Positions 8,981-21,628 of a DNA stretch of 41,930 nt are shown piece by piece. The first letter of the stretch is position 1, and each line of letters starts with the position of its first letter. The DNA lies in NCBI GenBank assembly GCA_020845955.1, contig JADLEU010000145.1:1-41930 (forward strand), read 5' to 3'. The stretch comes from Anaerolineales bacterium. Lineage in GTDB: Bacteria; Chloroflexota; Anaerolineae; Anaerolineales; UBA6663. The notes beneath the pieces are model-generated. The model saw only the letters and a list, made by a program, of their open reading frames with translations, made no database searches and had not been told where the DNA came from. Made by a program: the position numbers and the translations under genes.

Positions 8981-10924
8981 CTAGGGAGCAAAAGCACGAA
9001 CGGGGACGGCCGTGTAGCCAATCCCGCGGCCGTTAGAATTCGTGGCGTGCGCAACGGCCACCACCGGAGCAGATTGTGCTTCCACGTAGATCGAATGCAC
9101 ACCCGCGACCAACTGGCTGTAGACCTCCCGTGACTGGCGTGCTGGCAGTTGAAAGACGTACGTGTAGACTGGGGTGCCGGCAGCCTCGTATTCCGAGAGC
9201 ACTACCCAGGTCGCCGTGGCGCCAGGATTGAACACGGTCACGCTCGCTTCCCATCCCCCAGTGCCGTCAATGATCCACGGCAGGTACAACCCATAGGCGC
9301 CTCCGCTGAGGGCCGGATAGCCCAGGGCCCAGAAGCCCTGGGCGTGGTGCGCGGCAGTCGTTACCCGGCGGTTGCTGCTGACCAGATAGCGGCCCGCCCC
9401 CTGGCCGGTCGGGAAGACTTGACTGGCGCCCAGGTAGATCTCCGGCCCGCCAGCCAGGTTGAGGTTGAAGCTCTCGCTCCCGCTTGGCGAATAGTACGCG
9501 TTAACGGTCGTGGCCACGTCGTACGTCTCCTGGGTGGAGGAACTGGAATTCCATCCCCAGTAGTCCTTGAACAACGAGGCCGCGAAGTTGCCGGCTCCGC
9601 CTTCGGTTGCGCCCACGTACGCGATCGTATCGGCGCCGGCATTCTCGTGACGCACGCCTGCCACAATCGGCTTGGTGTAGTCAGCGGACATGACGCGCAC
9701 CGATCCGCGCGCTGTTCCGTTGAGCGAGAAGGTGTGGCTTGCTCGTGGCCCCAACGGCACGTTGGAAAGCCAATTGACGAGCACGCCCGCGTCGTCGTAG
9801 AGCTGCGCGTTGAAAGTCACGCCGCCCGGGTTCAAATTGTGGACCGTCAGGGTGGAATTCCAACCGTAGTAGTTCACCAGATTGCTGGGGATGTAGCTCC
9901 TGGCGCTGGTACCCAACCCTCCGTGGGAGGTCCCGCTGGGGACAGCCTCAATGGCATAGCTGCGCGTGCCGTTGTCCACGATGGCCACCGCCGAGAGGTT
10001 CTCGGCGCCATCGAGGTGTGCGGCCCCCTGAAAGCTCGCCGGGGCCGCCTGGGAGCACGTGGCCGAGGGTGCGAGATTGCTGCAGGAAGACGTGCTGACA
10101 TTCGTGCCGGCCGCGTTGTAGTACCGGATGGAGACGTTCCGGGGCACCGTGCCGTTGTTGCGCACGTACAGGGTCGTTCCCCAACCCGATCCGGTTCGCA
10201 GGTCGGAGAGATACAGGCGTCCGTTGACGCTGGTGTAGGTTCCGAAATCGGCCAACCCGGTCTGGCCCGTGTCGGTCAGCATCCGGCTCGGCTGATGCCC
10301 CTGGGGCGCCTGGGGAGTGGCCAGCGCATCACAATTGCTGGCACATAGCGATCGATAAGCGCCGCCGTCCAGGCGCCGATAGCCAAAATGCAGGTGTACT
10401 CCGCCCGTGGTCCCGGTTTCCCCAACCAAGGCGATCAGATGAGACGAAGATACTTGAAGCCCGACGCTTACTTTGTCAACATTGATTAGGTGAGCATAGT
10501 GAGACTGATAATAATCACCAGTACGGCTTACGAGATGATTGATCTTGATGTTGCAGCCATAGCCGGGACCTGGATCGCAGTTCGCGTATGATACTTGTCC
10601 GTGTGCTACTGGGAGCACCGCTGCACCGTAATCACCCGCCCGGTTCCAGTCGGTGGCATAGTAGTCATTATAGGGGTTGCAGTGCAGGTTGTTTCCGTAG
10701 AAAGAGCCGGCAGCACCGACGACCCAGGCCTCGCCAGCGATGAATGGCATTTGAAGCTCAAGGCTACTGGTAGGCGCTTCGGTTCCTGGATTTGTGGTGC
10801 CAGTCGAGCAAGGGCCTTGTGCGTAGGCTGTTGAGTACCACAGGTCTAGGGGACTAGCTGAGATCAGCATGACGGTTATTAGGCCGAAGTGGAACGCCGC
10901 ATGCTTATGCAGTTGGATTGACAT
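8981..10924 (-). CDS. Secreted M23 (LytM)-type peptidase with repeated beta modules
   Basis: A 647-residue protein with an N-terminal signal peptide (hydrophobic stretch, probable cleavage near AYAQG, about residue 36). Residues 60-195 form an M23 peptidoglycan-endopeptidase-like domain: NDYYATDWN, SHYAHL and HLHFG (177-181). The first zinc histidine is not in its usual place; an upstream LHCNP may supply it, so activity is uncertain. From about 225 to the end there are three or four related beta modules of about 110 residues, each with a GW-S-LTV-N core followed by a YY-x-AG strand. GGGGGAG precedes the ATG. GC content drops to 42 percent in 10441-10560 (51 of 120 bases), far below the neighbours. 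Confidence 0.75.
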   Translation of the reverse strand: MSIQLHKHAAFHFGLITVMLISASPLDLWYSTAYAQGPCSTGTTNPGTEAPTSSLELQMPFIAGEAWVVGAAGSFYGNNLHCNPYNDYYATDWNRAGDYGAAVLPVAHGQVSYANCDPGPGYGCNIKINHLVSRTGDYYQSHYAHLINVDKVSVGLQVSSSHLIALVGETGTTGGVHLHFGYRRLDGGAYRSLCASNCDALATPQAPQGHQPSRMLTDTGQTGLADFGTYTSVNGRLYLSDLRTGSGWGTTLYVRNNGTVPRNVSIRYYNAAGTNVSTSSCSNLAPSATCSQAAPASFQGAAHLDGAENLSAVAIVDNGTRSYAIEAVPSGTSHGGLGTSARSYIPSNLVNYYGWNSTLTVHNLNPGGVTFNAQLYDDAGVLVNWLSNVPLGPRASHTFSLNGTARGSVRVMSADYTKPIVAGVRHENAGADTIAYVGATEGGAGNFAASLFKDYWGWNSSSSTQETYDVATTVNAYYSPSGSESFNLNLAGGPEIYLGASQVFPTGQGAGRYLVSSNRRVTTAAHHAQGFWALGYPALSGGAYGLYLPWIIDGTGGWEASVTVFNPGATATWVVLSEYEAAGTPVYTYVFQLPARQSREVYSQLVAGVHSIYVEAQSAPVVAVAHATNSNGRGIGYTAVPVRAFAP

Positions 10925-12026: not shown

Positions 12027-13379
12027 TTGGCATTCAATCATGGGAGTCAGTATCTGGTCGCCGTGGTCGGCGCGGGACCCGCGGGCCTGTTTGCGGCCCG
12101 GCAACTGGCGCAGGCAGGCGCGCATGTGGTGATCTTCAACCGCGACATCAAGCCGGGCGGCTTGGCCGAGTATGGGATTTATCCCGACAAGCACAAGATG
12201 AAAGAGGGGCTGCGCAAACAGTTTCGCCAACTGCTGGCCCTGCCGCAAATCGAATACTACGGCAACGTCACCATCGGCCAGCACGGCGATTTGACCCTGG
12301 ACGACCTGCGCGCGGCCGGGTTCCAGGCCATCCTGGTGACGGTCGGCGCCCAGGGCACCAAGTGGCTGGGGCTGCCGGGCGAGGACCTGCGCGGGGTCTA
12401 CCACGCCAAGGACCTGGTCTATCACTACAACCGGCTGCCGCCCTACAGCCAGCAGACGTTTTCGATTGGGCGCCGGGTGGCGATCGTGGGCGTCGGCAAT
12501 GTGATGCTCGACATCGCGCACTGGCTGATCCATGACCTGAAGGTGGAGGAGGTGGTGGCCGTGGCCCGCCGCGGCCCGAACGAAGTCAAGTTCGACAAGG
12601 CCGAGATGGAGTACGTGGCGGCCAACCTGGACGTGCCCGCCCTGGATGAAGAGCTGGAGCGGGTGCGCGCGCGGGTGGAGGCGGTTGGGCAGGACGTGGC
12701 CAAGGCGCGCAGCTACATCCTGGCAGCGCTGCCCGGCGCGCACCCGCGGATTTCCGATACGCGCTTTCGGCTGGAGTTCCTGGGCTCGCCGCACGCCATC
12801 GTCGACGATGGGCATGGCGGTGTGGCCGGGCTGCAGGTCGAGGACACCACGCTGGTAGCCGCCAACGGCGACACCAAGGCGCGCGGCACGGGCGCCTACC
12901 GGGTGATCCCGGCCGACACGGTGGTCTTCGCCATCGGCGACCGGGTGGACGAGGGCTTCGGCCTGCCCGTCAAGTGGAACGCCTTTGTGAAGCACCCCGA
13001 GCCGTGCTTCCCGGTCGGCGGCCTGTGCTACGAGGTCTACGACCCGGCCGCCGGCGCGCCGGTGCCAAGCGTGTTCGTGGCCGGCTGGTCGCGCGAGGCC
13101 AGCACCGGTCTGGTGGGGGCGGCGCGCAAAGACGGCACCAGCGGCGCGCAGGCGGTGCTGCAGTACCTGCGCACGCTGCCAACCGCGCCGGGCGCCGACC
13201 TGGAGGCGCTGCGCGCCAGGCTGGCCGGTCTGCCCGGCCCGGTGGTGACCAAGGCCGACTGGCAGCGCCTGGAGGCAGCGGAAGCGGCCGAGGCGCAGCG
13301 GCTGGGGCTGGCCGAGTTCAAGTACAGCACTAACGCCGAGATGCTGGCCGCAATGGGGCTGGAAATAGCGGAAACGTAA
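12027..13379 (+). CDS. FAD-dependent ferredoxin-NADP(+) reductase-like oxidoreductase
   Basis: A 450-residue two-dinucleotide-binding-domain flavoprotein. The FAD site is VVGAGPAGLFAAR (residues 12-24), followed by FNRDIKPGGLAEYGIYP, as in adrenodoxin reductase/FprA and glutamate synthase small subunits. The NAD(P) site is VAIVGVGNVMLDIA near 152, and a second FAD contact is PSVFVAGWSRE. No iron-sulfur cysteines are seen. It probably moves electrons between NAD(P)H and ferredoxin or a similar carrier. The start is TTG, supported by GCAGGAGG six bases upstream. The DUF1786 gene follows after 14 bases, so the two are likely co-expressed. Confidence 0.85.
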   Translation: MAFNHGSQYLVAVVGAGPAGLFAARQLAQAGAHVVIFNRDIKPGGLAEYGIYPDKHKMKEGLRKQFRQLLALPQIEYYGNVTIGQHGDLTLDDLRAAGFQAILVTVGAQGTKWLGLPGEDLRGVYHAKDLVYHYNRLPPYSQQTFSIGRRVAIVGVGNVMLDIAHWLIHDLKVEEVVAVARRGPNEVKFDKAEMEYVAANLDVPALDEELERVRARVEAVGQDVAKARSYILAALPGAHPRISDTRFRLEFLGSPHAIVDDGHGGVAGLQVEDTTLVAANGDTKARGTGAYRVIPADTVVFAIGDRVDEGFGLPVKWNAFVKHPEPCFPVGGLCYEVYDPAAGAPVPSVFVAGWSREASTGLVGAARKDGTSGAQAVLQYLRTLPTAPGADLEALRARLAGLPGPVVTKADWQRLEAAEAAEAQRLGLAEFKYSTNAEMLAAMGLEIAET

Positions 13380-13393
13380 GCCTGGTTTGGTCG

Positions 13394-14557
13394 ATGCGCG
13401 TTTTGACGGTCGATATCGGCACTGGCACACAAGACATCTTCCTCTACGACTCGGCGCTCGACCTGGAAAACGGCTACAAGCTGGTGATGCCGTCGCCGAC
13501 GATGATGGTCAACCGCCGGCTGAAGGCTGCCACCGCCCGGCGTGAGGCGGTGGCGCTGACGGGCTACCTGATGGGGGGCGGACCCAGCCAGTGGGCGGCG
13601 CGCGACCACGTGCGGGCCGGCGGGGTGCTGTACGCCACGCCGCAGGCGGCGCGCACGTTCAACGACGACCTGGACTACGTGGCGCGCGACATGGGGGTGC
13701 GCCTGGTCAGCGACGACGAGGCGCTGGCGCTGGACCCGGCCGTGGTGCGGCTGGAGTTGAAGGACTTCGATTATGCGCTGATCGCGCGCGCCTGCGAGCA
13801 GTTTGGGTTGTCGCTGCAGGTGGACGCGGCGGCCGTGGCGGTATTCGATCACGGCGACGCGCCGCCCGGGTATTCCGACCGGCAGTTCCGTTTCGATTAC
13901 TTGGATGCCCACTGCCGGGCCGTGGCGGGCCGGGCGCGCGCCGAGGCGCAGCTGGCCGGGTTTGCGCATCGCGCGGCCGACATTCCAGCCAGCATGACGC
14001 GGCTGCGCGCCGTGGCCGCCGCCGCCCAAGCGCAGGGCCTGGAGGCGCCGCTGCTGGTGATGGACACGGCCCCGGCGGCTGTCTTGGGGACGCTGCTGGA
14101 CGCGCGCGTCGGCGCGGCCGTGGAAACCGGGGCGCTGGTGGCCAACGTGGGCAACTTTCACTGCCTGGTGTTCCGGCTCGGCGCGGGCGGCGTCGAGGGG
14201 ATCTTTGAGCACCATACGGGCGAGTTGACGCGGGCCAAGCTGGATAGCTTTATCAGTGCCCTAGCGCGCTCGACGCTGCAGAATCGCGATGTGTTCGACG
14301 ATATGGGGCACGGCGCGCTGGTCTACGACCCGCGGCCCCTGGACGAGCCGTATTTCCTGGCGGTAGCGGGCCCGCGCCGGGCGCTGCTGCAGGGCTCGGC
14401 CCACCGACCGTACTTTGCCGCGCCAGGCGGTGATATGATGTTGGCAGGCTGTTTTGGCTTGCTGCGTGCTCTGGCCGAGGCCTGGCCGGAGTTCGGCGAG
14501 CCGATCTTGCGCTCGCTGGCTGGCGGCGGTGGACTGGCGCCGTGGGAGACGAATTGA
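13394..14557 (+). CDS. DUF1786 (ASKHA-fold) protein
   Basis: A 387-residue protein beginning MRVLTVDIGTGTQDIFLYDS, the signature of DUF1786 proteins, whose DIGTGTQD loop resembles the phosphate-1 loop of actin/Hsp70/sugar-kinase ATPases. A second glycine-rich nucleotide-like segment, ETGALVANVGNFHCLVFRLG, occurs near residues 237-256. The family has been linked by annotation to pyruvate-formate-lyase activation, but I know of no firm biochemical function. It starts 14 bases after the flavoprotein gene and is followed 49 bases later by the S41-like lipoprotein gene, all on one strand. Confidence 0.8.
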   Translation: MRVLTVDIGTGTQDIFLYDSALDLENGYKLVMPSPTMMVNRRLKAATARREAVALTGYLMGGGPSQWAARDHVRAGGVLYATPQAARTFNDDLDYVARDMGVRLVSDDEALALDPAVVRLELKDFDYALIARACEQFGLSLQVDAAAVAVFDHGDAPPGYSDRQFRFDYLDAHCRAVAGRARAEAQLAGFAHRAADIPASMTRLRAVAAAAQAQGLEAPLLVMDTAPAAVLGTLLDARVGAAVETGALVANVGNFHCLVFRLGAGGVEGIFEHHTGELTRAKLDSFISALARSTLQNRDVFDDMGHGALVYDPRPLDEPYFLAVAGPRRALLQGSAHRPYFAAPGGDMMLAGCFGLLRALAEAWPEFGEPILRSLAGGGGLAPWETN

Positions 14558-14606
14558 CAGGCTGAGCGGTGTGCGGAGGGTAGACCTGGACGGTCCGGAG
14601 GCTGCT

Positions 14607-15866
14607 ATGCCGAGAGGGATTGTGTTGCGCGGGGTGCTGGCCGGCCTGCTGGCGATGACGCTGGCCTGCAGCGGGCTGCAGCGCGCGGCGCCGACGGCCA
14701 CGCCAGCGCCGACAGCCGCGGCGACCGAACGCCACCTGCGAGTCTTCGAGGCGGCCTGGGAGGCGGTGCGCGATCAATACCTGCTGACGGACTACGGCGG
14801 CGTGGACTGGGAAGCAGTCGGCGAGGAGTACCGCGCCAAAATTGCGGCCGGCTTGACTGAGGACGAGTTTATCGCCGCCATGGACGCCATGTTGGCGACC
14901 CTGCCGAGCGACCAGGCGCTGTACCAGACGCGGGCCGAACGGTTGGAAGAAGAGACGACTGATCAGTCGGTCTATCACGGCATCGGGGCCTTTATCGGCT
15001 TCCGCGAAACCCCGCAGCCGCACGTGGTGATCCTGGCCGTGATCCAGGAGTCGCCGGCGGAGGCCGCCGGGCTGGAGGCGCACGACAGCATTTATGCCGT
15101 CGACGGCGTGCCGTTTGCAGTGGAGGACGCGCGCGGTCCGGCCGAGCGCATCCGCGGCGCTCCGGAGACCAGCGTAACGCTAACGGTCCAGTCGCCCGGC
15201 GAGGAGCGGCGCGACGTGGTCGTCCCGCGGCAGGAGATCCGCGCGACGGATGTGCTGCGCGGCGGGCTGCTGACCACGCTGGAGGTCGCTTACTACCGGG
15301 TGCCGGTGATCGCGACCGCCAGCCTGGCCTCGGCGATTGCCGGCGACCTGGAGGCGATCAGCGCGACAACCCAATTGCGGGGCATCGTGCTGGACCTGCG
15401 CGTGTCGCGCTCAGGGACCGGCGAATGGCCGCTGGGCGAAATGTTGGCGATCTTCGGCAATGGCGCGCTGGGTGAGTTCTATACCCGCACCACGACCGAC
15501 CCGGTGACGGTCGAGGGCCGAGACGTGGGCGGCTCGCAGACGCTGCCGCTCATCCTGCTGGTAGGGCGCGACACCGAGGGCACCCCCGAGATCTTCGCGG
15601 CGGCGATGCAGGCTTCGGGGCGCGCGCAGGTGCTGGGCCAACCCACGCCGGGCTCGGTCGAAGGCTTTGACGAGATCGCGCTGCCTGACGGATCGCGCCT
15701 GTTCCTGGCGACCTCATCGTTTCGCACCAGCGACCACGTGGACCTGGCGCGGTCCGGCATCACGCCCGACCAGGAATTCGACGCCGACTGGGACCAGGTC
15801 TCGATTGACGACGACCCGATCCTGGGCGCCGCGCTGAGCCTGTTGGTATCGGCACAGCCGCATTGA
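14607..15866 (+). CDS. S41-family (C-terminal processing protease) lipoprotein, catalytically degenerate
   Basis: A 419-residue exported protein: hydrophobic N-terminus ending TLACSG (likely lipoprotein cysteine), Ala/Thr/Pro linker, helical region, a PDZ domain about 125-215 (IQESPAEAAGLEAHDSIYAV), then an S41 core. The core aligns without gaps to the Prc/CtpA catalytic region around EIFAAAMQ. The nucleophile serine is replaced by Gly325 (15579-15581), and the lysine 25 residues later by Ser350 (15654-15656). It is thus probably an inactive homologue that binds peptides. GGAGG five bases before the ATG at 14607 fixes the start. The TGA stop overlaps the -35 of the next promoter. Confidence 0.85.
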   Translation: MPRGIVLRGVLAGLLAMTLACSGLQRAAPTATPAPTAAATERHLRVFEAAWEAVRDQYLLTDYGGVDWEAVGEEYRAKIAAGLTEDEFIAAMDAMLATLPSDQALYQTRAERLEEETTDQSVYHGIGAFIGFRETPQPHVVILAVIQESPAEAAGLEAHDSIYAVDGVPFAVEDARGPAERIRGAPETSVTLTVQSPGEERRDVVVPRQEIRATDVLRGGLLTTLEVAYYRVPVIATASLASAIAGDLEAISATTQLRGIVLDLRVSRSGTGEWPLGEMLAIFGNGALGEFYTRTTTDPVTVEGRDVGGSQTLPLILLVGRDTEGTPEIFAAAMQASGRAQVLGQPTPGSVEGFDEIALPDGSRLFLATSSFRTSDHVDLARSGITPDQEFDADWDQVSIDDDPILGAALSLLVSAQPH

Positions 15867-15926: not shown

Positions 15927-15930
15927 GGAC

Positions 15931-16056
15931 GCTCATCCAGAGAGGCGGAGGGACCGGCCCGATGAAGCCTCGGCAACCTGCACGGCCGGTTGGTGTGCCA
16001 CACACCGGCCGAGCCCCCAAGGTGCCAATTCCGGCAGAGCATTCTGGAAGATGAGG
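15931..16056 (+). promoter_or_regulatory. SAM-I (S-box) riboswitch aptamer of metH operon
   Basis: The conserved core is nearly identical to the metK aptamer: AGAGAGGCGGAGGGACCGG, ATGAAGCCTCGGCAACC, GGTGCCAATTCCGGCAG and TTCTGGAAGATGAG. P1 pairs CTCATC (15932-15937) with GATGAG (16050-16055). The P3 arm is longer than at metK: CGGCCGGT/ACCGGCCG plus an inner GTGT/ACAC. GAGGC (16053-16057) can instead pair with GCCTC (16081-16085) in the terminator arm as antiterminator, so SAM should switch the operon off. Confidence 0.95.
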
Positions 16057-16079
16057 CAGACCGAGCAGGATTGACAGCG

Positions 16080-16144: not shown

Positions 16145-19100
16145 ATGGGCAGGTCAATGGACGGATCGCGACGGTATCTCGAGGCGCTGGCGGAGCGCGT
16201 GCTCATCTTTGACGGCGCCATGGGCACCAGCCTGCAGCGCTTTTCGCTCTCGGCGGCCGACTTCGGCGGCGAAACGCTGTGGGGCTGCAACGATAACCTG
16301 GTGATCAGCAAGCCGGCGGTGGTCGAAACCGTGCACGACGGCTTCCTGGCCGCCGGCTGCGATGTGGTGGAAACCTGCACCTTTCGAGCCAACCGGCTGA
16401 CCTTGCGCGAATATGGCCTGCAGGACCAGATCGTGACGCTGAACCGCACGGCGGCGCAGCTGGCGCGGCGCTGCGCCGACCGCTACGCCACGGCCGGCCG
16501 GCCGCGCTTTGTGGCCGGCTCGATCGGCCCCAGCGGCCTGCTGCCCTCCGCCGACGATCCCATGCTGTCGAATATCACTTTTGACGAGCTGGCCGAGGCC
16601 TTTCGCGAGCAAGGGGTGGGCCTGTTGGAAGGCGGCGTGGACGTGCTGCTGATCGAGACTTCGCAGGACATCCTGGAAGTCAAGGCCGCCATCTGGGGGC
16701 TGCGGCAGGCCTGCGCCGGCACGGGCCGGCAGGTGCCGATCCAGGTGCAGGTGACGCTCGACACCACCGGACGCATGCTGCTGGGCACCGATATTGCCGC
16801 CGCGCTGGCCACGCTGGAGCGCCTGGCGATCGACGTGGTCGGCCTAAACTGCTCGACCGGTCCCGAGCACATGCGCGAGCCGATCCGCTACTTGGCGGAG
16901 AATTCCAGCCTGCCAGTGGCCTGCATCCCGAACGCCGGGCTGCCGCTCAACGTGGACGGGCAGGCAGTCTACCCGCTGGAGCCAGAGCCGTTTGCGACGG
17001 AGTTGGCCGAGTTCGTGACCCAGCACGGGGTGAGCACGGTGGGCGGCTGCTGCGGCACGACGCCCGAGCACATCCGGCTGCTGGTGGAGCGCGTGGGCGG
17101 CCGGCGCCAGGCGCCGCGCCCGGCGCTGCCGCTGCCGCTGGTGTCGTCGGCGATCCGGGCCACCGGACTGCAGCAGGCTCCGCCGCCGATGCTGATCGGC
17201 GAACGGCTCAACTCGCAGGGCAGCCGCAAGATGAAGGATTTGCTGCTGGCCGACGACTACGACGGCATGCTGGAGCTGGCGCGCGAGCAGGTGGCCAGCG
17301 GCGCGCACACGCTGGACGTGTGCGTAGCGCTGACCGAGCGCGCCGACGAAGCGGCCCAGATGCGGGCGCTGGTGAAAAAGCTAAGCATGAGCATCGAGGC
17401 CCCGCTGGTGATCGACACCACCGAGCCCGACGTCGTGGCGGCGGCGCTGAAGGCCGCACCCGGCCGCGTGATCGTCAACGCCATCAACATGGAAAACGGC
17501 CGCCAGCGCATCGACGCCGTGGTCCCGCTGGTCAAGGCGCACGGCGCCGCGGTGATCGCCTTGACGATCGACGAAGCGGGGATGGCCAAGACGGCGGCGC
17601 GCAAGCGCGAGGTGGCCGAGAAGGTCTACGCCCTGGTGGTGGGCGAATATGGCCTGCGGCCCGACGCGCTGATCTTCGACGACCTGACCTTCACGCTGGC
17701 GACCGGCGAAGCCGAGTTCGCCAACTCGGCGGTCGAAACCATTGAGGGCCTGCGGCAGATCAAGGCCGGTCTGCCAGGAGTGCTCACGTCGCTGGGCGTC
17801 AGCAACGTTTCCTTCGGCTTCAAGCCGGCGGCGCGGGCGGTACTGAACAGCGTCTTCCTCTACCACTGCGTCCAGGCCGGCCTGGATATGGCCATCGTGA
17901 ACCCCAAGCACATCACGCCCTATGCCGAGATCCCGGCCGAACAGCGCGTCCTGGCCGACGACCTGATCTTCAACCGGCGGCCCGAGGCCCTGGCGCGCTT
18001 CATCAGCTTCTTCGAGGCGGTCAACCTGCCGACGGCTGAAGCGGTGGACGAGCTGGATGGCATGACGGCCGAGCAGCGCGTGCACTGGCGCATTCTGCAC
18101 CGCAAGAAGGACCAGGTGGAGGCCGACTTGGACGAGATCCTGGAACGGCTGGTGCGCCAGGCTGGCGGGGTGGCGGACTTCCGGCGCCAGCCCGGCTACG
18201 TTTACCCCAACGCGGACACCTCGCGCGCCGTGGTGCAGGTGCTCAACCAGGTGCTGCTGCCGGCCATGAAAGAAGTCGGCGACAAGTTCGGCGCCGGCGA
18301 GCTGATCCTGCCCTTCGTACTGCAGTCGGCCGAGGTGATGAAGAAGGCCGTGGCCCACGTCGAGCGCTTCTTGGAGCGGCAGGAAGGCGTGACCAAGGGC
18401 AAGGTGGTGCTGGCCACGGTTTACGGCGACGTGCACGACATCGGCAAGAACCTGGTGAAGACCATCCTGGCCAACAACGGCTACACCGTCTTCGACCTGG
18501 GCAAGCAGGCGCCGGCCAACGTCATCATCGACAAGGCGGTAGAAGTGGGCGCCGATGCCATCGGCTTGAGCGCGCTGCTGGTCAGCACCTCCAAGCAGAT
18601 GCCGCTGGTCGTTCAGGAGCTGCAGCGGCGCGGGCTGGCTATCCCGGTGCTCATCGGCGGCGCGGCCATCAACCGCAAGTTCGGCCGCCGCATCCTGTTC
18701 GTGGACGCCGAGCAGCAGAGGCCGTACGCGCCGGGTGTGTACTACTGCAAGGACGCTTTCGAGGGCCTGGAGACGATGGACCGCCTGCAAGACCCCGCGC
18801 AGCGGGCGGAATTTGTGAGCCGGGTTCAGCAGGCGGCGGCGCGCGAGGTCAGCCAGCAGGCCGCCACGGGCCCGCGGCCCGCGCCGGGCGCCCGCTCAGC
18901 GGTGGCCCAGCGCCGGGCGCAGATCCCGGCGCCGGCCGTGTGGGGACCGCGCGTGATCGAGCGCATGCCGCTCGAGCTGGTGTTCGAGTGTCTCGACCAG
19001 GATGAGCTCTTCCGGCTCTCGTGGGGGGCCAAGAACGCGCACGGCGCCGAATGGGAGCGGCTGCGCGGCGAGTTTGAGGCGCGGCTGGCCGCGATGAAGC

Positions 19101-19735
19101 GCGCGGCCCTGGCGCAGGCGTGGTTTGCGCCGCGGGCCGTCTACGGGTTCTGGCCGGCGCAGTCTGAAGGCGACGACCTGCTGATCTACGACGCCGCCTC
19201 CGCTCAGAATGGCGGCGGGCTGCGCGCGCTGGCCCGCTTTACTTTCCCACGCCAGCCCGGCCAGGATGTCTTGTGCCTGGCGGACTACTTTGCGCCGGTC
19301 GACTCCGGGGTGATCGACGTCGCCGCCTTCCAGGTGGTGACGGTTGGGCCGCGGGCTACCGAGCGCTTCGACCGCCTGCAGGCCAGCCACGCCTACACCG
19401 ACGCGTATTTCTTTCACGGCCTGGCCGTGCAGACGGCCGAGGCCACGGCGGAATACGTGCACCGCCACCTGCGGCGCGAGCTGGCGATCGCTCCGGGCCG
19501 AGGCAAGCGGTACTCGTGGGGCTATCCGGCCATCCCAGAGTTGGACGATCACCGCAAGGTGTTCGACCTGCTGCCGGCCAAGCAGGCGCTGGGCATGGCG
19601 CTGAGCCCGGCCTGCCAACTGATCCCCGAGCAATCCACCGCCGCGATCGTGGTGCATCATCCCGAGGCGCGCTACTTCACCATCGGCGGCAGCCGGATCG
19701 AGCAGCTCGAGCGGGAGATGAGCAAGCTGGAGTAG
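16145..19735 (+). CDS. metH: Cobalamin-dependent methionine synthase
   Basis: MetH moves a methyl group from 5-methyltetrahydrofolate to homocysteine through cobalamin. All modules are present in the 1196 residues: homocysteine/zinc domain about 1-320 (GAMGTSLQ, NCSTGPEHM, GGCCGTTPEH near 300); pterin-binding domain about 348-620 (LIGERLNSQG); B12 cap and Rossmann domain about 630-880 with the cobalamin-lower-ligand motif DVHDIG near 762; and the AdoMet reactivation domain about 920-1196 (RYSWGYPAIPELDD, PEQSTAAIVVHHPEA). ATG 16145 is preceded by GGAGG; an ATG at 16157 is possible. SAM-I control and co-transcription with the next gene complete a methionine-regeneration operon. Confidence 0.97.
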   Translation: MGRSMDGSRRYLEALAERVLIFDGAMGTSLQRFSLSAADFGGETLWGCNDNLVISKPAVVETVHDGFLAAGCDVVETCTFRANRLTLREYGLQDQIVTLNRTAAQLARRCADRYATAGRPRFVAGSIGPSGLLPSADDPMLSNITFDELAEAFREQGVGLLEGGVDVLLIETSQDILEVKAAIWGLRQACAGTGRQVPIQVQVTLDTTGRMLLGTDIAAALATLERLAIDVVGLNCSTGPEHMREPIRYLAENSSLPVACIPNAGLPLNVDGQAVYPLEPEPFATELAEFVTQHGVSTVGGCCGTTPEHIRLLVERVGGRRQAPRPALPLPLVSSAIRATGLQQAPPPMLIGERLNSQGSRKMKDLLLADDYDGMLELAREQVASGAHTLDVCVALTERADEAAQMRALVKKLSMSIEAPLVIDTTEPDVVAAALKAAPGRVIVNAINMENGRQRIDAVVPLVKAHGAAVIALTIDEAGMAKTAARKREVAEKVYALVVGEYGLRPDALIFDDLTFTLATGEAEFANSAVETIEGLRQIKAGLPGVLTSLGVSNVSFGFKPAARAVLNSVFLYHCVQAGLDMAIVNPKHITPYAEIPAEQRVLADDLIFNRRPEALARFISFFEAVNLPTAEAVDELDGMTAEQRVHWRILHRKKDQVEADLDEILERLVRQAGGVADFRRQPGYVYPNADTSRAVVQVLNQVLLPAMKEVGDKFGAGELILPFVLQSAEVMKKAVAHVERFLERQEGVTKGKVVLATVYGDVHDIGKNLVKTILANNGYTVFDLGKQAPANVIIDKAVEVGADAIGLSALLVSTSKQMPLVVQELQRRGLAIPVLIGGAAINRKFGRRILFVDAEQQRPYAPGVYYCKDAFEGLETMDRLQDPAQRAEFVSRVQQAAAREVSQQAATGPRPAPGARSAVAQRRAQIPAPAVWGPRVIERMPLELVFECLDQDELFRLSWGAKNAHGAEWERLRGEFEARLAAMKRAALAQAWFAPRAVYGFWPAQSEGDDLLIYDAASAQNGGGLRALARFTFPRQPGQDVLCLADYFAPVDSGVIDVAAFQVVTVGPRATERFDRLQASHAYTDAYFFHGLAVQTAEATAEYVHRHLRRELAIAPGRGKRYSWGYPAIPELDDHRKVFDLLPAKQALGMALSPACQLIPEQSTAAIVVHHPEARYFTIGGSRIEQLEREMSKLE

Positions 19736-19744
19736 GTCTGTCCA

Positions 19745-21628
19745 ATGATGACACCGTTGCTGCTTGAGCGGCTGAACCGCGGACCGCTTCTGGCCGATGG
19801 GGCCATGGGCACCATGCTGCACGCGCGCGGCGTGCCCTTTGCCGACAGTTTCGACGCCCTCAACCTCAGCCGGCCGGCGCTGGTGGCGGAGATCCACCGC
19901 GCCTACATCGAGGCCGGGACGGAAATCGTCGCTACCAATACCTTTGGCGCCAATCGCTACAAGCTCGGCCAGCACGGCCTGGCCGGCCAGGCGCGTGACG
20001 TCAACGCGGCCGGCGTCGCGCTGGCGCGACGCGTAATCGCCGCGACCTATAAGGAAGTGCTCGTGGCGGGGAGCGTGGGGCCGCTGGGGGTGCGGCTGGC
20101 GCCGTTTGGCCGCGTGAAGTCTGAGCAAGCCTACGCCGCCTTTCACGAGCAGATCGCGGCCTTGGTCGAGAGCGGCGTCGACCTGGTCCTGATCGAGACG
20201 ATGAGCGACCTGTTCGAGATGGCCGAGGCCGTGCGGGCGGCCCGGCTGGTGGGGCGGGCGCCGGTGGCGGCCAGCATGACGTTCACGCGCGACGACCGCA
20301 CGCTGCTAGGCGACACCCCGGCCAAGGTGGGCGAGGCGCTGGCGCGGCTGGGCGTCGACTTCGTCGGCGTCAACTGCTCGGGCGGCCCGGCCCAAGTGCT
20401 GCGAATCCTGCAGGCGCTGCGGCGGGCCGCGCCAGACGCCCGCCTGCTGGTCAAACCCAATGCGGGCTGGCCCGAGCACGTTGGCGGCCGGATCATGTAC
20501 CCCGCCACGCCCGAGTATTTCGGTGAGTACGCGTTGGCGTTTGTGGCGGCCGGGGCCAGCATTGTGGGCGGCTGCTGCGGCACCACGCCCGACCACATTG
20601 CCGCGATGCGCCAGGCGCTGGACGCGCCAGCGCAGCCGCAGCTGGAGGCCGGCCTGGCGCTGACCCGCGAGGTGGAGCGGCGCGAGGACGGCAGGGCGGC
20701 CGACGCGCCCACCGCCCTGGCCGAGAAGCTGGCCGCCGGCAAATTCGTGGTGGGGGTGGAGGTGGACCCGCCGCGCGGGTTCAGCCCTCACAAGCTCCTG
20801 GCAGGGGCGCACCTGCTGGCCGAGGCCGGAGCGGACATTATCAACGTCGCCGATTCGCCCATGGCGCGCATGCGCATGTCGGCCTGGGCCGTGGCGCACC
20901 TGATCCAGCGCGAGGTGAAGCTGGAGACGGTGCTGCACTTTCCCACTCGCGGCCGGAACCTGCTGCGGGTGCAGGGCGACTTGCTGGCGGCGCATGCCCT
21001 GGGGGTGCGTAACGTTTTCGTCGTGATGGGCGATCCGACGGCGATCGGCGACTACCCCAACGCCATGGACAACTATGACCTGGTGCCGTCGGGCCTGATC
21101 AAGCTCATCAAACAGGGCTTCAACGCCGGGGTGGATCACTCGGGGGCCGATATCGGCCAGCCGACTTCTTTCCTGGTGGGGTGTGCCCTCAACCTGGCCG
21201 CGGTCGACCTGGACAAGGAGGTCAAAACGCTGCACCGGAAGATCGCGGCCGGCGCCGACTTCGCGTTGACCCAGCCGCTGTACGAAGCCGCTCCGGCGCG
21301 CGCCTTTCTCCAACGCTACGCCCAGGCCCATGGGCCGCTGCGGCTGCCGCTCCTGGTGGGGGTGCTGCCACTCTACAACGCGCGGCACGCGGCCTTCCTG
21401 CACAACGAGGTGCCGGGGATCGCGATCCCGGCGGCGCTGCGGGAGCGCATGGCGGCGGCCGGCGAGCAGGGCCCGGCCGAGGGCGTGCGCCAGGCCGTGG
21501 CGCTGCTGGCCGAGCTGCGCGGCGTGGTTCAGGGCGCCTACCTGATGCCGCCGTTTGGGCGCTATGACCTGGCCGCGGAGATCCTCGACAGCGTGCGCGC
21601 AGGCGCCGGGCAGGCAGCGCGCCGCTAG
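19745..21628 (+). CDS. Fused homocysteine S-methyltransferase / methylenetetrahydrofolate reductase
   Basis: A 627-residue bifunctional protein of the YitJ type. Residues 1-295 are a homocysteine methyltransferase with the zinc-cysteine motifs NCSGGP and GGCCGTTPDH; residues about 330-620 are a MetF-like TIM barrel (VGVEVDPPRG, FPTRGRN, NVFVVMGDP, DFALTQPLYE). The reductase half makes 5-methyltetrahydrofolate, the methyl donor for MetH, while the N-terminal half may use another donor such as S-methylmethionine. It starts nine bases after metH, with ATG 19745 or 19748. With MetH upstream, the operon encodes two homocysteine-methylating modules and the methyl-folate supply. Confidence 0.93.
   Translation: MMTPLLLERLNRGPLLADGAMGTMLHARGVPFADSFDALNLSRPALVAEIHRAYIEAGTEIVATNTFGANRYKLGQHGLAGQARDVNAAGVALARRVIAATYKEVLVAGSVGPLGVRLAPFGRVKSEQAYAAFHEQIAALVESGVDLVLIETMSDLFEMAEAVRAARLVGRAPVAASMTFTRDDRTLLGDTPAKVGEALARLGVDFVGVNCSGGPAQVLRILQALRRAAPDARLLVKPNAGWPEHVGGRIMYPATPEYFGEYALAFVAAGASIVGGCCGTTPDHIAAMRQALDAPAQPQLEAGLALTREVERREDGRAADAPTALAEKLAAGKFVVGVEVDPPRGFSPHKLLAGAHLLAEAGADIINVADSPMARMRMSAWAVAHLIQREVKLETVLHFPTRGRNLLRVQGDLLAAHALGVRNVFVVMGDPTAIGDYPNAMDNYDLVPSGLIKLIKQGFNAGVDHSGADIGQPTSFLVGCALNLAAVDLDKEVKTLHRKIAAGADFALTQPLYEAAPARAFLQRYAQAHGPLRLPLLVGVLPLYNARHAAFLHNEVPGIAIPAALRERMAAAGEQGPAEGVRQAVALLAELRGVVQGAYLMPPFGRYDLAAEILDSVRAGAGQAARR

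Follow-up and report, generated by a model that had tools for sequence, protein, structure and literature searches.

How should we read an apparently intact bacterial gene whose product has the fold of a carboxyl-terminal processing protease (CTP) but not its catalytic residues, and what might such a protein do? The question is raised by a gene for an S41/PDZ lipoprotein on a 41,930-nucleotide contig of an Anaerolineales bacterium, here called the window. The first-pass annotation of this DNA had proposed that the protein is a pseudoprotease without its catalytic Ser-Lys pair, which binds peptide ends, perhaps as an adaptor or decoy in the envelope. We therefore compared the protein with its orthologues, its active relatives and known S41 structures, and examined the genes that accompany it in related genomes.

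Gene organization and predicted fold

The features of the locus are collected in Table 1. The frame is intact and preceded by a good ribosome-binding site, and a flavoprotein/DUF1786 gene pair lies directly upstream, in agreement with the first-pass annotation. The PDZ and exported lipoprotein layout that it described is likewise kept. Specifically, Pfam matches the protein to Peptidase_S41 (8.5e-16; PF03572, 58.4 bits against a cut-off of 24), Tricorn_C1 (3.4e-12) and PDZ_6 (3e-07; 30.5 bits against a cut-off of 27), the last supported also by a structure match, and an N-terminal signal with a Cys, typical of bacterial lipoproteins, is present in all of the first-found orthologues. The protein matches none of the defence-system models. 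Since the SAM riboswitch downstream begins the next unit, the pseudoprotease gene probably closes a unit of its own. The window carries two SAM riboswitches in 42 kb, the other one at 192–300, and the downstream riboswitch is followed by two consecutive methionine synthase-type genes (16154–19735 and 19745–21628). Judging from its sequence, a large open reading frame on the reverse strand (8981–10924) may encode an exported M23-like peptidase with repeated domains behind it.

Table 1 Features of the pseudoprotease gene and its surroundings, in window coordinates
Feature	Position	Strand	Basis or remark
Flavoprotein gene, glutamate-synthase-small-subunit-like, NAD(P)-binding	12027–13379	+	Upstream of the DUF1786 gene
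DUF1786 protein gene	13394–14557	+	Pfam; 49 bp upstream of the pseudoprotease gene
GGAGG ribosome-binding site	14597–14601	+	5-nt spacer; read in the sequence
Pseudoprotease gene, S41/PDZ lipoprotein	14607–15866	+	419 aa, ATG start, frame intact, no catalytic residues
Lipoprotein signal peptide to Cys21	14607–14669	+	Lipobox TLAC of the window protein is weak
N-terminal helical domain (residues 46–97)	14742–14897	+	Tricorn_C1 match; helices in the predicted structure
Former His loop, here LPSDQAL, then clade-specific Arg109 and Arg112	14898–14942	+	L-x-D-x-H-S in active relatives
PDZ domain (residues 121–213), conserved	14967–15245	+	Pfam match; structure match; invariant G125-I126-G127
S41 core domain (residues 247–390)	15345–15776	+	Pfam; high-confidence part of the model; D1 protease Z 27
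Site of the lost N-x-G-G loop (residues 267–270), then clade-specific Trp274-Pro275	15405–15416	+	Alignment
Gly325 codon GGC, nucleophile position	15579–15581	+	Alignment with D1 protease and orthologues
Ser350 codon TCG; Lys in Ser-Lys enzymes, Asn in the nearest active relatives	15654–15656	+	Alignments
SAM riboswitch opening the next unit (methionine synthase)	15930–16057	+	77.9 bits

The predicted structure of the window protein (pLDDT 87.5, pTM 0.82) keeps the S41 core and the tunnel loops, which are modelled with high confidence. The closest known structure is that of D1 protease (Z 27 over 345 residues), followed by CtpA and CtpB, while SaNSR, the IRBP modules (Z about 19), CPAF and Tricorn match with lower Z. 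Additionally, the PDZ part was compared with PDZ structures (VIA-align) and matches, for example, 6bxg with Z 13.6 over 90 residues.

Loss of the catalytic residues

A single-sequence search of the genome contigs gave mostly ordinary CTPs among the matches listed. The window's dead S41 clade, here named P1, is represented by 33 orthologues found in related genomes of 18 genera. The motif region aligns without gaps with the D1 C-terminal processing protease (1fc6), whose GTASASE lies over DTEGTPE and whose TFGKG lies over TPGSV; the catalytic Ser is thereby matched by Gly325 and the Lys by Ser350, as had been assigned at first pass, so that the window protein has neither the Ser nucleophile nor the Lys general base of an S41A CTP. 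Position 325 is Gly in 32 orthologues and Ala in one, whereas it is Ser in 47/47 of the nearest active relatives, which makes Gly325 more than a matter of chance, and no orthologue carries the normal Ser and Lys. The expectation that both replacements would be conserved across a clade holds for the Gly only. Position 350, Asn in all 47 active relatives, is free in P1, where it is occupied by twelve different residues; Lys occurs there in 5/33 orthologues, each time without Ser at 325.

The loss reaches well beyond these two positions. Position 103 (Gln in the window protein) is never His in the 33 orthologues but is His in 47/47 active relatives, and Asp101, Asn267, Gly269 and Gly270, likewise found in all 47, are also gone from the clade. 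Position 381 is Glu in 46 of the 47 relatives (98%), within the motif W-E-x-x-G, versus Ala in the window protein and Gly in 76% of the clade. The two marks of a Ser-His type S41 enzyme, the His of the L-x-D-x-H-S loop and the C-terminal acidic residue, are both missing. The split between dead and active proteins is complete, with no intermediate seen among the 33 orthologues and 47 active relatives.

These comparisons also modify the description of what was lost. The residues of the Ser-Lys pair named in the first-pass annotation are indeed absent, but the 47 nearest active relatives, which include a paralogue in the window genome (C71), all carry Ser, His and Asn together with N-x-G-G, not Ser-Lys, and P1 has lost the His, the Asn/Gly-Gly and the Glu as well. 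The active site lost by P1 may thus have been of the Ser-His type. The canonical CTPs of the window genome are Ser-Lys enzymes, one of which (L001) has the His as well, so that we can only infer which kind of active site the direct ancestor of P1 had.

An alternative Ser-Lys pair around the site is ruled out, since the window protein holds a single lysine, Lys78, and no second pair can be built there. P1 might still be a different hydrolase that keeps this fold but works through another residue, for which the retained fold and tunnel loops and the high conservation of Ser371 and Thr347 could be taken to speak; we consider this very unlikely. Ser371 aligns with a Thr common in active relatives, Thr323 and Glu328 are shared with the active enzymes, and the corresponding Glu is structural in SaNSR (PMC4698656). 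The 33 orthologues share no conserved Lys, and the sole conserved His of the clade, His159, lies in the PDZ domain and is common to the active relatives.

Purifying selection and repeated loss of catalysis

With the motif columns left out of the tree, the P1 clade has a support of 100/99. In eight close P1 pairs dN/dS is 0.05–0.12, compared with 0.08–0.14 in active relatives. P1 has conserved residues of its own, namely Pro100, Arg109, Arg112, Pro136, Pro138, Arg181, Trp274, Pro275 and Leu359, several of which adjoin the former active site in sequence, and its PDZ domain retains the invariants G125-I126-G127, R183-G184, R202 and R208. The low dN/dS and the signature residues indicate that the protein is functional and was reshaped, not abandoned. 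Judging from the sequences, it is almost certain that P1 has kept its fold and PDZ domain under purifying selection and lost all catalytic elements clade-wide, which sustains the first-pass reading of a real, conserved pseudoprotease. The window's assembly is a draft one, in 431 contigs. Even so, an ordinary protease gene with a sequencing error or local decay has a negligible probability as an explanation and is ruled out by a loss common to 33 orthologues of 18 genera, whose frames are open and whose dN/dS is about 0.1.

One possible outcome of such reshaping is that the dead S41 core became a pocket for a small hydrophobic ligand (a lipid or similar), as in RBP3 (IRBP), with the PDZ domain left over or regulatory. 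The known precedent is RBP3, whose S41 fold is devoid of the protease residues and serves to carry retinoids and fatty acids (PMC11750400); the P1 model matches the IRBP modules, and the clade-specific Trp274-Pro275 stands right after the lost N-x-G-G loop. However, the PDZ domain is strongly conserved, with invariants throughout the clade, and would be superfluous in a protein that only carries a ligand. We consider this reading unlikely, although it is the main rival to the adaptor role proposed below.

Catalysis has also been lost elsewhere in the family. A second dead clade, P2, contains ten proteins, mostly of family f18 (L155, L156, L159, L160, L163, L164, L202, L203, L206 and L207), in which the nucleophile is replaced by Gly and the His and the Gly-Gly are missing; several of them have active paralogues in the same genomes. 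Additionally, one locus (L148) holds tandem S41 genes at 1–1125 and 1159–2649, one with intact Ser-His-Asn and one dead, in which the Ser motif has Gly-Gly and the His is replaced by Gln, while both genes are intact in a related locus (L157). P2 and the dead L148 copy show that catalysis was lost at least twice, the tree branches forcing two changes; by the AU test, P1 and P2 may share one origin (p 0.37). The family is thus a natural experiment in which one fold lost catalysis at least two times and kept its PDZ domain. In the tree, a Roseiflexus contig sequence (L036) groups with the same-phylum sequences L198–L201, which points to Chloroflexota as the phylum.

The presence of active paralogues bears on the rival that ranks next, regulation of another S41 protease, in which P1 would compete for substrates or form mixed oligomers with the Ser-His paralogue or a Ser-Lys CTP. 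The window genome encodes C71 and three other S41 proteins, the tandem in L148 sets a dead copy beside an active one in one related genome, and in 32/33 P1 genomes one or more further S41 proteins were detected at E ≤ 1e-30. On the other hand, Ser-Lys CTPs are nearly universal and their co-occurrence with P1 says little, and no active S41 gene adjoins P1 in the neighbourhoods examined. There are near-complete P1 genomes (G260, 100%; G194, 98%; G123, 97%; G074, 93%; G059, 92%) that lack the close active paralogue, which is therefore not an obligate partner. The decoy suggested at first pass is accordingly disfavoured as an obligate decoy of this paralogue, and regulation of an S41 enzyme in general appears doubtful.

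Association with a propeller lipoprotein and an FtsH-like protease

P1 lies immediately upstream of a beta-propeller lipoprotein gene in 11 genomes (families f8, f11, f38 and f49), and in six of these the two genes overlap by 4 bp. The partner is a lipoprotein of ~430 residues, whose beta-propeller fold is supported by a predicted model. In one sample of 400 genomes of the order, in which the presence/absence counts are affected by the incompleteness of metagenome-assembled genomes, P1 was found in 30, the propeller in 49 and both in 28. The propeller accompanies 28/30 P1 carriers versus 21/370 non-carriers (Fisher 1.7e-27, phylogeny ignored); counted by genus, it occurs in 14/15 with P1 versus 13/115 without (p 1.2e-10, phylogeny likewise ignored). 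Only a few candidates were scored per genome in the large genome samples, and genes in the high-GC sequences were called by a simple script, which concealed the gene in two loci. P1 almost never occurs without the propeller, while the propeller often occurs without P1 (21 genomes). A partial P1-like open frame, probably a broken copy, precedes the propeller gene in one genome (L245:5456–6019, G733).

The two P1 carriers of this sample without a propeller are a 63%-complete genome and the window's own. The window's own assembly, which is estimated to be complete, yielded no propeller orthologue (best match 7.7e-12), so that the link between P1 and propeller may not hold there and the proposed partner may be absent from this organism. 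As for an FtsH-type protein, the same assembly has only one of 35% identity.

A divergent FtsH-like AAA-M41 protease gene adjoins the propeller gene in many of the P1-propeller genomes, and the two are convergent in many genomes. This family scores about half of the NCBI FtsH cut-off (examples are L214:9903–12137 and L126:10373–12316). Its gene stands with the propeller but away from P1 in members of f1 and f4, and between the two in f5. P1 and propeller are apart in f1, f4 and f15, where P1 adjoins genes for DUF1786, a PIG-L deacetylase or (by eye) a dipeptidase. DUF1786 neighbours P1 in f1, f3 and f4 only, other metabolic genes taking that place elsewhere; as a functional partner it is disfavoured, though conceivable.

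Proposed function

The best explanation, which we put forward tentatively, is that P1 is a dead S41 adaptor or sensor of the envelope that works with the propeller near the FtsH-like protease, most likely binding peptides as the adaptor of a quality-control module at the membrane. By its sequence, P1 is a lipoprotein anchored to the outer side of the cell membrane, where its PDZ domain and former substrate tunnel may still accept peptide ends or unfolded tails, and a bound peptide would be held without being cut. Together with the propeller lipoprotein, where that link is readable, and beside the divergent FtsH-like membrane protease, P1 would pick substrate for another protein. The active site of FtsH is cytoplasmic and P1 lies outside, so any coupling would have to pass through the membrane. 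The adaptor role envisaged at first pass is compatible with these data, and the propeller lipoprotein and the FtsH-like protease that are linked to P1 add new support for it.

A more specific arrangement, to which we assign a low probability, is a split, dead Tricorn-like receptor. Propeller and P1 would assemble into one complex at the outer membrane surface of the cell, recognize damaged or unfolded protein ends, and pass the ends or a signal to the FtsH-like protease. If true, a pseudoprotease would stand at the centre of a quality-control module of the bacterial envelope.

Comparison with known systems

Rhomboids and a few other families have well-studied pseudoproteases. The precedent that we found for an S41-fold pseudoprotease is vertebrate RBP3; our searches of the open-access full-text literature gave other protease families, and no family of S41 pseudoproteases from bacteria was described there. 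Domain-based naming would label P1 proteins "S41 family peptidase", and the partner genes make the function of P1 testable.

P1 resembles the S41A CTPs, such as D1 protease, CtpA, CtpB and Prc, in its PDZ-inserted fold, its export and its Pfam S41 and PDZ matches, but the Ser nucleophile and Lys base of these enzymes are absent from the whole clade. Among the Ser-His enzymes, the nisin resistance protein SaNSR has the dyad Ser236-His98, with Asn265 and Thr263 orienting the His, and consists of a helical bundle, a cap and a core with no PDZ domain (PMC4698656). The nearest active relatives of P1 share its Ser, His and Asn pattern; P1 itself differs from SaNSR in having a PDZ domain. For CPAF, the catalytic residues are cited as His105-Ser499-Glu558 in PMC8787135, and the motif order of the active relatives, with the His loop, the Ser and an acidic residue near the C-terminal end, agrees. 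In contrast to SaNSR, CPAF and Tricorn, these residues are all missing from the window clade.

Tricorn is composed of one or more propellers, C1, PDZ and C2. By analogy, the P1 system offers a similar set of a propeller, C1, PDZ and S41 core, the propeller being a neighbouring gene in many genomes. Here, however, there are two lipoproteins, a single propeller and a dead protease part, and the likeness is drawn as an analogy. The whole profile of the active relatives spans Tricorn end to end, and the profile of their N-terminal part matches D1 protease and two S41 structures from Bacteroidales but does not match Tricorn.

The CTP adaptors NlpI and LbcA would resemble P1 in a possible role as envelope substrate adaptors. 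LbcA is a TPR spiral (PMC8764530). P1 has the S41 fold instead, and Pfam gives no TPR match in the window protein. RBP3, a vertebrate eye protein with a retinoid or fatty acid ligand, is built of repeated modules without a PDZ domain and differs from P1 in these respects. The two proteins are alike in an S41 fold that has lost its catalytic residues, and RBP3 illustrates how such a fold can take on a new binding role (PMC11750400).
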